From: Fusobacterium necrogenes
GTDB taxonomy: Bacteria; Fusobacteriota; Fusobacteriia; Fusobacteriales; Fusobacteriaceae
DNA length: 64,000 nt
Assembly (NCBI RefSeq): GCF_900450765.1
Contig: NZ_UGGU01000003.1
Span: 1,626,854 to 1,690,853 of the forward strand
Direction: 5' to 3'
Position 1 is the stretch's first letter. Every line of letters begins with the position of its first letter. The notes under the pieces are model-generated. The model saw only the letters and a list, made by a program, of their open reading frames with translations, did not search any database and was not told the DNA's origin. Shown here one piece after another: positions 36,987 through 40,954 of the stretch. A program made the position numbers and the translations under genes.

Positions 36987-37022
36987 TAGTTTTTTGAATT
37001 TTTTTTTATTTTTTTGAAATTT

Positions 37023-37345
37023 AGAGGCATTAAATAAGCCGGGTTTTGTATATGTTAATTATTTATCTAGAATTATAATCTCTTATAATCTCAAGCAACT
37101 TACCCTGAAAGCTGGACGAGCAACCCTTAACCTTTCCTACTTAGTCTTGCTCCAGAGGGGGTTTACCTAGCTTTTTTAGTTTCCTAAAAAACTGGTGGTC
37201 TCTTACACCACCTTTTCACCCTTACCATGATGGCGGTTTCTTTTCTGTGGCACTTTCCTTAAAGTTTCCTTTAGCAGCCGTTAGCTGCCCTCTTGCTCTA
37301 TGGAGCCCGGACTTTCCTCTCCTTAATTTTTAAGCAGCAATTAAC
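37023..37345 (-). ncRNA. rnpB: RNase P RNA
   Basis: The catalytic RNA of tRNA 5' maturation, about 320 bases on the minus strand. The conserved P4 strands GAGGAAAGUCCGGGCUCC near the 5' end and ACAAAACCCGGCUUA near the 3' end, and the GAAACCGCC and AAGGGUGAAA blocks between, are diagnostic. Ends are estimated. No strong terminator follows; the rRNA promoter starts about 40 bases downstream. Its own promoter would fall at the 3' end of the TPM-domain gene. Confidence 0.93.
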
Positions 37346-37363
37346 TTTAATACCTCTATTCTA

Positions 37364-37948
37364 CTATTTTTTCTTACTTACTATCTCAATTTCTTCTTTG
37401 AAACTCTTTTTATATTTTACCATAAGTATCCTTATAATCAAAATAAAAATTAAAAAAAATAAAGCTCCCATTCCTATTAAAAATTTATTTTTCTTTTCCT
37501 CTGTAATTTCTTCTTCTATAACTATAGGATCTTCTATCTTAATTTTATCAATTATTCCATCTAATCCATCTAATACCCCCATAGTATAATCAACTATTTT
37601 CCTCTCAGCTAAATATCTTTCATTTATATTTAATACTTCATCTATACTCCCTTGTATATCATCTAACTCCATATCCTTAGTAACCTTTAACTCAACTTTA
37701 AATTTTTCTTCAGATGATTTGATTAGATTTAAAATTAATACCCTCTCAGCTTGTTCTACTACGAATCCTTCTTCTCCTGAAAAACTATTAACATAAATAT
37801 TAATATCTCTTTTCTTTCCAATATCTTCTATTTTTTTCTCTAACTCAACTTTTTGAACTTCATCAAATAAATTTAAATTATCATTCACTCTTCCAAATAA
37901 CAATAAATTTATTAAAAAAATTCCAACTATAAATATTTTTTTTCTCAT
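37364..37948 (-). CDS. TPM-domain membrane protein
   Basis: A 194-residue protein from the ATG at 37948, with GGAG nine bases upstream. An N-terminal signal or membrane segment (KKIFIVGIFLINLLLFG), a TPM-like extracytoplasmic domain (about 20-110, NLNLFDEVQKVELEKKIEDI, RDINIYVNSF) and a C-terminal membrane segment (FLIGMGALFFLIFILIIRI) with a Lys-rich tail facing the cytoplasm. The TPM family is proposed to act in membrane protein or photosystem repair; function here is unknown. It is the last gene of the dnaG-rpoD unit and overlaps the 3' region of nif3 only in its rejected longer frame. Confidence 0.65.
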   Translation of the reverse strand: MRKKIFIVGIFLINLLLFGRVNDNLNLFDEVQKVELEKKIEDIGKKRDINIYVNSFSGEEGFVVEQAERVLILNLIKSSEEKFKVELKVTKDMELDDIQGSIDEVLNINERYLAERKIVDYTMGVLDGLDGIIDKIKIEDPIVIEEEITEEKKNKFLIGMGALFFLIFILIIRILMVKYKKSFKEEIEIVSKKK

Positions 37949-37964
37949 CTTCATACACTCCAAA

Positions 37965-38741
37965 TTAATAATTTTTAAAAACTGGCCCATCATTATATAT
38001 AGTACTTTTTATCTCTAAACGTTCAAAATGCTCCTTCAATAAATCTGCAAAACATTTTTCTCCTTCAAAATGACCTATATCGATCAAGTTCAAACCCGCT
38101 TCTTTAGCATCTAAAGCTTCATGATATCCTACATCCCCAGTTATAAATAGATCCACTCCCATTTTCTTTGCTTTTTTCCAATAACTCATACCCGATCCAT
38201 TAACAAGAGCTATCTTTTTTACTACTCTTTTCTCATCACCTATAAATCTTACACTCTCTATTTCCAAATTTTTCTTTAAAATTTGAATATATTCTTCTAT
38301 TGTAGAATTTTTTATTAACTTATAAACTCTTCCTATTCCAGAGCTTTCAATATTCATATTTTCATCTACTATTTTAGCTTCATCTATTCCTAACTTTTTC
38401 AATATATAATCATTCAAACCATTCAAAGCAGAATCTAAATTAGTATGTAAGGTATATAAATTAATTTTATTCTCTATTAACTTTATAATTTTTCTTCCTA
38501 AAACTGTCGAATAATCAATACTTTTTATGGCTCTAAATATCATAGGATGATGTGTTACTATCATATCTACTCCATTTTCTATAGCTTTATCTATAGCCTT
38601 TTCAGTAGCATCCAATGAAATTTGAATTTTTTGTACTTCTCTTTTTTCATCACCGATTAATAACCCTACATTATCCCACTCTTCTGCCAAATCTTTAGGA
38701 AACACTCTTTCTAATTCTTTTATTATATCTTTTGTTATCAC
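37965..38741 (-). CDS. Nif3-like dinuclear metal centre protein (YqfO/YbgI family)
   Basis: A 258-residue Nif3 protein. The metal ligands lie in VTHHPMIFR near residue 62, YTLHTNLDSALNG near 97 and DIGHFEGE near 220. GTG start at 38741 overlaps the TGA stop of the preceding gene by four bases, implying translational coupling. The family is conserved but its biochemical role is unsettled (GTP cyclohydrolase I type 2 annotation is old and doubtful). In many bacteria it lies next to rpoD, as here. Confidence 0.9.
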   Translation of the reverse strand: MITKDIIKELERVFPKDLAEEWDNVGLLIGDEKREVQKIQISLDATEKAIDKAIENGVDMIVTHHPMIFRAIKSIDYSTVLGRKIIKLIENKINLYTLHTNLDSALNGLNDYILKKLGIDEAKIVDENMNIESSGIGRVYKLIKNSTIEEYIQILKKNLEIESVRFIGDEKRVVKKIALVNGSGMSYWKKAKKMGVDLFITGDVGYHEALDAKEAGLNLIDIGHFEGEKCFADLLKEHFERLEIKSTIYNDGPVFKNY

Positions 38742-39553
38742 AAAATCACCTTCCCTTCAACTGTTGAAAGTATAAATAGAGCCTGCTCAAATATTAGCTC
38801 TCCCTCTCCCTTAGCTATTCCTAATTTCTCTTCTATTTCGAATATAGATAATCTTTTTTCTTTTCCAAATCCAAAATAACAATTCAAAACCTCTATCTGC
38901 CTTGAACTTAATCTATTTTTCAACTTAAAAAAATCTATTTGTCTCTCCATCAACTTTTCTCGTTTATCTATTGATTCAAGTGTTGGAAGCAAATCCTCCT
39001 CCTTTAGATATACTTCTGAACTATCTTCTAACTCCTCTTCATAAGGATTTTCTTTTCCAAAATTTTCTCTTTTATCTTTAAAAAAATTTTTAAATTCATT
39101 TTTTGTAGCTACAACCTTATTATTAATAAATAGTACTATCTCTCTTATTATCCAATATTTTTTATAATTTTCAAAATCTCCATAAATCTCACTATTATAT
39201 ATATCTATTCCTTTTATAAGCCCAACTGTTCCCTCTTGGACAACATCTAAGTAACTTATTCCTTCTCTTAGATAGTTAAAAGCAATAGAAGCTATCACAG
39301 GTAGATTTTGTAATATAAATTCTTCTCCTTCTAAATTCTCACTAAGATCTATATTTGAAATTTCTTCTAAGTAGTCTATCACATTCTCTTCTCCTAGAGA
39401 TTCTAAATCTCCATCATCTAATTCTTTTAACCCTAATTTTGTATAATCTAGTATTAGCTCTTTCTTCTCTTTTAAAAAATCTAAAAATTTATCATCTTGA
39501 TGGTATTGCCTTATTACACCTTTTTCAAAATCCATAACATCTATTTTTCCCAT
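38738..39553 (-). CDS. Sigma-70-like protein with degenerate region 4
   Basis: A 271-residue protein recognisable as a sigma-70 relative. The stretch ILQNLPVIASIAFNYLREG followed by DVVQEGTVGLIKGIDIY and YKKYWIIREIVLFINN parallels sigma regions 2.1-2.4 of the RpoD encoded just upstream. The end, LSSRQIEVLNCYFGFGKE and SIFEIEEKLGI, recalls region 4, but the recognition helix RERIRQIE is not there. The start at 39553 follows GGAG; a longer frame runs through the rpoD terminator and is rejected. An acidic N terminus replaces region 1. It may be a specialised sigma or a polymerase-binding regulator; no function is claimed. Confidence 0.7.
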   Translation of the reverse strand: MGKIDVMDFEKGVIRQYHQDDKFLDFLKEKKELILDYTKLGLKELDDGDLESLGEENVIDYLEEISNIDLSENLEGEEFILQNLPVIASIAFNYLREGISYLDVVQEGTVGLIKGIDIYNSEIYGDFENYKKYWIIREIVLFINNKVVATKNEFKNFFKDKRENFGKENPYEEELEDSSEVYLKEEDLLPTLESIDKREKLMERQIDFFKLKNRLSSRQIEVLNCYFGFGKEKRLSIFEIEEKLGIAKGEGELIFEQALFILSTVEGKVIL

Positions 39554-39575
39554 AACTTTCTCCTTTTTAACCCAA

Positions 39576-39611
39576 AAAGAGGCTGGCACTTTCCATCTCT
39601 CCAGCCTCTTT
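39576..39611 (-). terminator. Terminator between rpoD and the sigma-like gene
   Basis: Perfect 11-bp stem (39576-39586 with 39601-39611), 14-base loop, and a T-run on the minus strand. It lies eight bases past the rpoD stop, so the downstream genes depend on read-through or on a promoter not identified. Confidence 0.85.
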
Positions 39612-39619
39612 TTTACAAA

Positions 39620-40954
39620 TTATACTTTGAAATCTTCTAATCTTTTTCTTCTACTTGGATGTCTCAACTTTCTAAGTGCTTTTACTTCTATCTGCCTTAT
39701 TCTTTCTCTCGTTACCTTAAAAATCTTTCCAACTTCTTCTAATGTCTTAGGTGATCCATCATCTAATCCATATCTATACCTTAAAACTTTCTCTTCTCTA
39801 CTACTTAAACTATTTAAAACCTCATCTAATTGTTCTCTCAATAAAGATCTATTTGTCAATTCATAAGGATTTAACATTTTATTATCTTCCACGAAATCCC
39901 CAAGTTCACTATCCTCTTCACTTCCTACTGGAGTTTCTAATGAAATTGGATCTTGATTCATTTCCTGTATCGCCTTTATTTTTTCAAGCTCCATTCCAAG
40001 TCTTTCTGCTAACACTTCAGGAGTAGCATCTTTTCCTGTCTCTTGAAGATAAATTCTAGCCTCTTTTTTGATTTTATTGATAGTCTCTATCATATGAACA
40101 GGTATTCTAATAGTTCTTCCTTGATCAGCAATAGCTCTTGTAATGGCCTGTCTTATCCACCAAGTAGCATATGTTGAAAACTTGTATCCCTTAGTATACT
40201 CAAATTTTTCTACTGCTTTCATAAGCCCTATATTTCCTTCTTGTATTAAATCAAGGAGCTTCAAACCTCTATTTGTATGCTTTTTAGCTATACTAACAAC
40301 AAGTCTTAAGTTTGCCTCTATCAACTGTTGACTTGCCCATTCATCTCCTTCTAATGCTCTCTTTGCATATTCTAATTCCTCATCATGGCTTAATAAGGGG
40401 ATCTGACCTATCTCTCTCAGATACATTTTAATAGGTTCATCTACTTTCATGTCTCCAGAAAGAGTAAATAAATCATCACTTATGTACTCATCGTCAGACA
40501 TATTTTCTAAATCATCTGAATTGAAATGATCAAAGTCATCATCAAAGTCATCTAATTTTCTATCTAAAACATCATCAAAGTCATCATCATCTAAAAAGTC
40601 ATCTTTTTCAAAAATATCAATATCTATTTCATCATCCTTAAAATCTTCATACTTTTCTTCATCTAGTAACTCTTCTTCCATCTCTTCTTTTTCTTTTTTC
40701 TTAGTTGTTTTCTTAACTATTTCTCTAACTTTTTTTTCCTTTGAATCTTTTACTATTTTTTTGTCTTTCTCTATATCATCTTGTTTTATAATTTCTATAC
40801 CTTGATCTATCATTCCAGTTATTAATTGTTCTATCTTATCTATTGGAAGATCGTCTTTAAGACCATCATTGATCTCTTCATAGGTAATACATTTATTTTC
40901 CATCGCTTTTCTAACCAGCGCTAGGACTTTTTCATTTTTTATAAACTCTCTCAT
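39620..40954 (-). CDS. rpoD: Housekeeping sigma factor RpoD (sigma-70/A)
   Basis: A 444-residue primary sigma. Region 1.1 is at the N terminus; residues about 95-165 form an extreme Asp/Glu-rich linker; region 1.2 ([21 protein letters not shown]), region 2 ([40 protein letters not shown]), region 3 and region 4 ([37 protein letters not shown]) follow. ATG has GAGGAGG upstream. It lies 23 bases downstream of dnaG, the conserved macromolecular-synthesis pairing. Confidence 0.98.

Follow-up and report, generated by a model that had tools for sequence, protein, structure and literature searches.

The rpoD-sigX-nif3 locus

In this study, we analyzed a 64,000-nucleotide stretch of Fusobacterium necrogenes DNA (hereafter the window), in which a gene that we call sigX lies between the gene for the primary sigma factor and a member of the NIF3/DUF34 family. 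The features of this locus are as follows:

39620..40954, minus strand: rpoD, encoding the primary sigma factor; regions 1.1, 1.2, 2, 3 and 4 are intact (Pfam)
39574..39613, minus strand: terminator-like hairpin with a T-run, between rpoD and sigX (z -3.4)
39560..39565, minus strand: Shine-Dalgarno sequence AAGGAG of sigX (sequence)
38738..39553, minus strand: sigX, degenerate sigma-70 family protein of 271 aa (ORF, profiles and AlphaFold2 model)
38738..38741, minus strand: GTGA, overlap of the sigX stop and the nif3 start (sequence)
37965..38741, minus strand: nif3/DUF34, the overlapping partner gene (Pfam PF01784, 284.7 bits)

The sigX reading frame starts with the ATG at 39553, and its stop codon ends at 38738. 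The placement given in a preliminary description of this DNA, after the rpoD terminator and with a four-base overlap with nif3, was confirmed on both counts. The hairpin behind rpoD has a loop of more than 8 bases; 32 of 42 loci had a hairpin with a T-run within the first 75 bases behind rpoD, where shuffled sequences gave an expectation of 0.25, and none of 21 loci of a second large family (f4) had one. The distance from the hairpin to the sigX start codon is about 20 nt, which is too short for a promoter, so that the expression of sigX is probably a fraction of that of rpoD. Either read-through from rpoD or a promoter within rpoD probably accounts for the transcription of sigX and nif3. Among the loci of the window's family (f1) that have a stripped form of SigX (see below) and hold both genes, the sigX-nif3 overlap was exactly 4 bases in 39 of 40; the sole exception was L034 (G015), whose nif3 is broken by in-frame stops.

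Downstream of nif3, several of the loci that we inspected, the outgroup included, encode a small and probably membrane-anchored protein (37364-37993, minus strand, in the window; L117 3712-4404, L121 2285-2947, L120 3748-4359 and L122 1272-1820). This protein had no Pfam match (best E 0.095), and in G049, where nif3 is missing, it directly follows sigX. The bacterial class A RNase P RNA (300 bits) was found at 37019-37357 of the window (minus strand), between the nif3 operon and the 16S rRNA. Our search of open-licence papers found no paper on this Fusobacterium gene and no report of SigX being tested for binding to core RNA polymerase (RNAP).

Domain organization of SigX

From the N- to the C-terminus, SigX consists of an N-terminal domain, a remnant of region 1.2, sigma domain 2, a linker and sigma domain 4:

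39398..39553, minus strand: aa 1-52, N-terminal domain that may be region 1.1-like in reduced form (AlphaFold2 pLDDT 93-96 for aa 1-30)
39332..39397, minus strand: aa 53-74, remnant of region 1.2 (VIA-align)
39116..39331, minus strand: aa 75-146, sigma domain 2 (Pfam Sigma70_r2; superposition on 1sig)
39215..39253, minus strand: aa 101-113 YLDVVQEGTVGLI, region 2.2 (Q406/E407/G408 invariant in 42 relatives)
39125..39181, minus strand: aa 125-143, region 2.3/2.4 (aromatics kept in the genus, 2.4 contacts replaced)
38981..39115, minus strand: aa 147-191, helix and acidic linker in place of regions 3 and 3.2
38750..38980, minus strand: aa 192-268, sigma domain 4 (by profile-profile comparison with RpoD region 4 and full-length SigX)
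38765..38812, minus strand: aa 248-263 KGEGELIFEQALFILS, replaced recognition helix (alignment of relatives)

Region 2, described at the outset as recognizable, was significant in profile searches: Pfam PF04542 (Sigma70_r2) scored 34.4 bits over aa 80-140 (cut-off 24), and NCBIfam TIGR02937 scored 48.8 bits over aa 77-249 (cut-off 42.9). Among the matches listed, phmmer against PDB sequences returned sigma factors only (best E 7.4e-9), and Foldseek with the AlphaFold2 model returned sigma-70 proteins only. The model itself, built from 40 orthologues, has a mean pLDDT of 84.6, with the helix and acidic linker between sigma2 and sigma4 modelled at low confidence. Using VIA-align, aa 53-146 were placed on E. 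coli sigma-70 residues 93-446 (regions 1.2 and 2), with 72 residues aligned to 1sig at an rmsd of 1.5 A and 32% identity, and in some matches the C-terminal part up to aa 268 fell on region 4. With regard to the N-terminus, RpoD region 1.1 aligns with the N-termini of full-length SigX orthologues (pairwise hhalign E 1.9e-4), and these align weakly with the N-terminus of the window's SigX (hhalign E 0.002).

A Pfam scan of the window's SigX detected neither region 3 nor region 4. Region 3 is absent, and the helix and acidic linker stand in place of it and of the sigma finger. For region 4, the last 85 residues of 42 SigX orthologues matched RpoD region 4 with an hhalign E of 1.3e-6 and the full-length orthologues with an E of 2.7e-14; the best of 100 column-shuffled profiles scored 16.6 versus 35.7 for the real one. 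These profile comparisons indicate that the region 4 domain is present in SigX as a fold, with its recognition helix replaced. The preliminary description was therefore right in that the RERIRQIE-type helix is absent, KGEGELIFEQALFILS standing in its place, but it overlooked the domain around this helix, as well as the loss of region 3.

The linker position (aa 147-191) is His-rich in several relatives, and the linker of the window's own SigX contains no His cluster. Stretches rich in His and Cys (up to 15 of 30 residues) were seen in SigX of L039 (2032-2907), L040 (2572-3438), L034, L035 and L009-L013. Their position differs by lineage and none was found in RpoD; possibly they bind metal.

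Distribution and gene order

We looked for SigX across 98 genomes belonging to the phylum. Almost all genomes sampled from the order had sigX upstream of nif3, mostly in the arrangement dnaG-rpoD-sigX-nif3, and this arrangement, or the part of it covered by the fetched stretch, occurs throughout f1 and the families f2 and f3. Since the same position is occupied across the genera of the window's family and in most genomes of the phylum, the conservation in related genomes is far above chance. Of the two outcomes that the preliminary description had named as refuting it, a lack of a significant region 2 match and a lack of conservation in relatives, neither was observed. A direct look at the loci of f4 revealed a diverged sigX at the same position, and an initial reading that this family lacks the gene was dropped. 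In genus g27 and the outgroup genome G097 (f6), the sigX-nif3 pair is located apart from rpoD (L106-L109 and L117), which implies that the linkage with nif3 outlasts that with rpoD; this had also escaped the preliminary description.

In the small-genome f4 genera g23 and g26, the ORF before nif3 is barely recognizable as SigX, and in genus g17 a barely recognizable ORF occurs without nif3. ORFs immediately upstream of nif3 were noted in small-genome f4 genera at L113 1909-2724, L114 2248-3057, L115 1980-2837 and L116 2027-2884; they probably encode SigX that has lost the DxxQE motif and has changed so far that HMMs hardly recognize it.

G017 has cleanly lost sigX, with a spacing of 65 bases between rpoD and nif3 (L120 2828-2894), while other members of its genus keep the gene. 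Conversely, G049 (L121) and G064 (L118) keep sigX and have no nif3 (PF01784) in the genome. The idea that sigX and nif3 are lost together was thus not supported by the PF01784 search of the 98 genomes, in which the two genes were lost separately. In G018 (L004 1480-1600), the sigX frame is broken near codon 13 in an A-run, which is possibly a sequencing error or else a loss in one species. When a wider contig collection was searched with a narrow SigX alignment, only Fusobacteriaceae and distant sigma proteins were retrieved. One record assigned to Ruminococcus (L080) has two sigma genes in tandem, which are probably unrelated to SigX.

Evolution from full-length to stripped forms

In genera g7-g10 and g13 and in families f2 and f3, SigX has approximately 330-355 residues and contains regions 2, 3 and 4. 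Among these full-length forms, L051, L041 and L049 reach about 160-200 bits with the best-matching RpoD-type and group 2 models. Over the 40 members of alignment A1, Pfam recognized region 2 in all 40, region 3 in 7 and region 4 in 7. In a phylogenetic tree of 45 rows, reconstructed without ECF sigmas, all SigX sequences formed one clade apart from RpoD and the other sigmas (SH-aLRT 100) and grouped with full-length RpoD-like forms; full-length SigX occupied short branches near RpoD and stripped SigX long ones. This fully supported separation from all RpoD sequences implies an old split and rules out that SigX is a simple, recent copy of rpoD.

The two large families have been reduced in opposite ways. 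In the window's clade (f1), region 3 and the -35 helix are gone and region 2 remains. The f4 proteins kept a Pfam-recognizable region 4 (40.9 bits in L083) and lost a Pfam-recognizable region 2; in L083 (1501-2448) and other f4 loci, region 2.3/2.4 is replaced, reading PEFFIKNFAVRYI. In the tree, the RpoD rows of the f1 genera with stripped SigX form a clade (96) that leaves out L041 and L043, whose genomes carry full-length SigX, and f4 is separate. It follows that stripping happened at least twice, and the independent loss in the second family had not been noticed in the preliminary description. Additional cases might be L117 (f6) and genus g14; their placement is unsure because of long branches.

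Residues retained and replaced

We compared the contact positions in E. coli sigma-70 numbering, including Q406/E407 as the pair contacting beta'. None of the 42 stripped f1 forms deviates at Q406, E407 or G408, and the 23 f4 forms likewise all have Q406 and E407. By analogy with D403/Q406/E407 of E. coli, region 2.2 of SigX would contact the beta' clamp helices. Percentages in this comparison come from related sequences, which overstates their independence: across the 42 stripped f1 forms, 64% of the core-contact residues of region 2 agree with RpoD, versus 70% in full-length forms, while the corresponding values for the region 2.3 aromatics and their neighbours are 37% versus 85%. By site entropy, core-contact positions were less variable than DNA-contact positions, which was weakly significant (p 0.04); full-length SigX showed the same trend without significance.

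In the window's genus, F127, Y130, Y133 and W134 are kept, i.e. F, Y, Y and W at positions 427, 430, 433 and 434; several sister genera, as well as f4, no longer have the reference melting aromatics (F427, Y430, W433 and W434). The region 2.4 contacts Q437, T440 and R441 are replaced in the window's SigX. The identity of the region 2.4 residues to RpoD is 0% in full-length orthologues as well, so that the loss of 2.4 is not specific to the degenerate forms. K426 is changed to D in 71% of the stripped f1 forms, and the net charge over positions 425-449 is -0.3 in stripped SigX versus +3.

Where the -35 recognition helix (R584, E585, R588 and Q589) is expected, the window has KGEGELIFEQ, which is not a basic helix. 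The mean net charge of this helix is -0.7 in the 42 stripped relatives, compared with +4 in full-length orthologues and +5 in RpoD. The replaced helix has a consensus of its own, with E at 577 (98%), G at 587 (90%), E at 588 (86%), F at 591 (95%) and S at 599 (100%). The resulting motif, EIE..L...GxGE..F..AL..LS, is conserved across about 10 genera, and this conservation points to repurposing of the helix rather than to decay or noise.

Selection on sigX

For about 30 close pairs, dN/dS of sigX was 0.03-0.26 (one almost unchanged pair left out), which is at a similar level to that of nif3 (approximately 0.04-0.29, with one pair with almost no synonymous change left out); the values for rpoD were approximately 0.01-0.12. 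Purifying selection on sigX, together with the conserved new motif, rules out that it is a pseudogene.

Possible function of SigX

It is well known that sigma factors compete for core RNAP. Judged by its sequence, SigX belongs to the sigma-70 family by descent and lacks the recognition helix of a working sigma; nor is it a primary (group 1) sigma, as region 3 is absent and RpoD itself is encoded next to it. Our preferred reading is that SigX may be a core-RNAP-binding regulator or sigma competitor and not an ordinary sigma factor, to which we assign about an even chance. We take SigX to derive from a full second sigma whose gene lay between rpoD and nif3. The window's lineage lost or replaced the elements that recognize or hold promoters (the 2.4 contacts, region 3 and the -35 helix) and kept the core-docking surfaces, i.e. 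region 2.2 for the beta' clamp helices and region 4.1 for the beta flap. Given that two families kept core-docking parts though they lost different other parts, docking on core RNAP is the simplest reading. SigX would most likely compete with RpoD or an alternative sigma for core RNAP, or replace it there, and thereby tune which holoenzymes form without initiating at specific promoters by itself. The new region 4 helix presumably contacts a protein partner and not the -35 box, and the gene would be expressed through read-through of the rpoD terminator. Several observations count against this reading, including the aromatics at 427, 430, 433 and 434 retained in the window's genus, the loss of sigX in G017, and the disappearance of DxxQE from the likely homologue in small-genome f4 genera. 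Of the two functions proposed in the preliminary description, a polymerase-binding decoy fits better, considering the lost positive charge of the helix, the R588 to E change and the invariant Q406/E407; the other proposal, a second sigma whose -35 contact is altered, suits the full-length orthologues in sister genera, but not clearly the window's SigX.

Those retained aromatics, together with a sigma2-linker-sigma4 build as in ECF sigmas, could also mean that SigX is a reduced yet genuine sigma factor, whose region 2 reads a single-stranded -10-like element and whose region 4, bound to the flap but not reading DNA, brings in an activator. The phage T4 pair gp55 and gp33 is a precedent that such an arrangement can work: gp55 recognizes a -10-like element, and gp33, at the flap tip, acts as a repressor or an activator according to gp45 (PMC7892883). 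However, several sister genera and f4 have lost the aromatics while Q406/E407 stay, and the basic residues along 2.3/2.4 are lost as well (K426 to D; lowered net charge of 425-449), and we thus regard a reduced sigma as unlikely, though a serious contender. At the other extreme, very fast evolution and repeated domain loss, the broken frame in G018 and the clean loss in G017 might suggest a decaying gene without present function. This is hardly credible: the dN/dS values contradict it, and sigX is kept in almost every genome, with a lineage-specific conserved motif in the replaced helix.

The constancy of the 4-base overlap and the persistence of the sigX-nif3 pair where rpoD is elsewhere raise another explanation, namely that the two proteins are made together by translational coupling and that their complex docks NIF3 on RNA polymerase. 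The His/Cys-rich linkers of several genera would be in line with the proposal that DUF34 proteins are metal chaperones (PMC8469502), and B. subtilis YqfO affects more than 400 genes and did not bind a target promoter (PMC8670212). Nevertheless, the window's own linker has no such cluster, and the separate losses (nif3 in G049 and G064, sigX in G017) speak against an obligate complex, which makes this adaptor role quite improbable. Alternatively, SigX could act as a PhyR-type anti-anti-sigma mimic, titrating an anti-sigma factor and thereby freeing another sigma. PhyR, too, is built of sigma2 and sigma4 without working as a sigma (PMC4598750), and the genome encodes four further sigma-type region 2 proteins besides SigX. 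On the other hand, SigX has no Pfam match to a receiver domain, no anti-sigma gene is linked to sigX, and PhyR copies an ECF sigma whereas SigX derives from an RpoD-like one; such mimicry appears highly improbable.

In its broadest form, the core-binding reading would mean that a sigma factor turned into a core-RNAP-binding regulator without promoter selection independently in at least two families of one order, giving a vertically inherited housekeeping anti-holoenzyme factor coupled to NIF3/DUF34. We offer this only tentatively, as a somewhat doubtful generalization. To our knowledge, transcription control in Fusobacteria has been little studied. A chromosomal sigma-derived protein that keeps its docking surfaces and drops those that read DNA would be a new control of sigma competition, and the graded series of living relatives, from intact to stripped, is a natural experiment on a sigma becoming a regulator. 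NIF3/DUF34 proteins are conserved in all domains of life and recur in transcription phenotypes, which the tight coupling of sigX and nif3 may help to explain. Automatic annotation would label SigX as a plain sigma-70 family sigma factor on the basis of its TIGR02937 score, which is probably misleading.

Comparison with known sigma factors and sigma-like proteins

SigX is homologous to group 2 or RpoD-like sigma-70 proteins (RpoS, cyanobacterial SigB-SigC and TIGR02997) in regions 1.2, 2 and 4, and the full-length forms of sister genera reach the scores against such models given above. Unlike these proteins, the window's SigX lacks region 3 and the -35 recognition helix and has an altered region 2.4. 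With ECF sigmas (TIGR02937), it shares a build of sigma2, acidic linker and sigma4 and a score above the model's cut-off. It differs from this group (group 4) in its origin from an RpoD-like sigma, in keeping the N-terminal and 1.2 segment, and in a sigma4 helix that does not look DNA-binding.

Two systems in which sigma-like parts serve other ends are also comparable. T4 gp55 and gp33 resemble SigX in that a sigma2-like protein sits on the clamp helices and a non-DNA-binding flap-tip binder takes the place of sigma4 (PMC7892883), but they are two separate phage proteins, and gp33 is structurally unrelated to sigma4 whereas the sigma4 of SigX is a true homologue; a sliding-clamp motif was not apparent in SigX. 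In the sigma-like domain of PhyR, sigma2 and sigma4 are likewise combined in something that is not a working sigma (PMC4598750); in contrast to SigX, which has no receiver domain, PhyR imitates an ECF sigma, has NepR as its target and bears a receiver domain.
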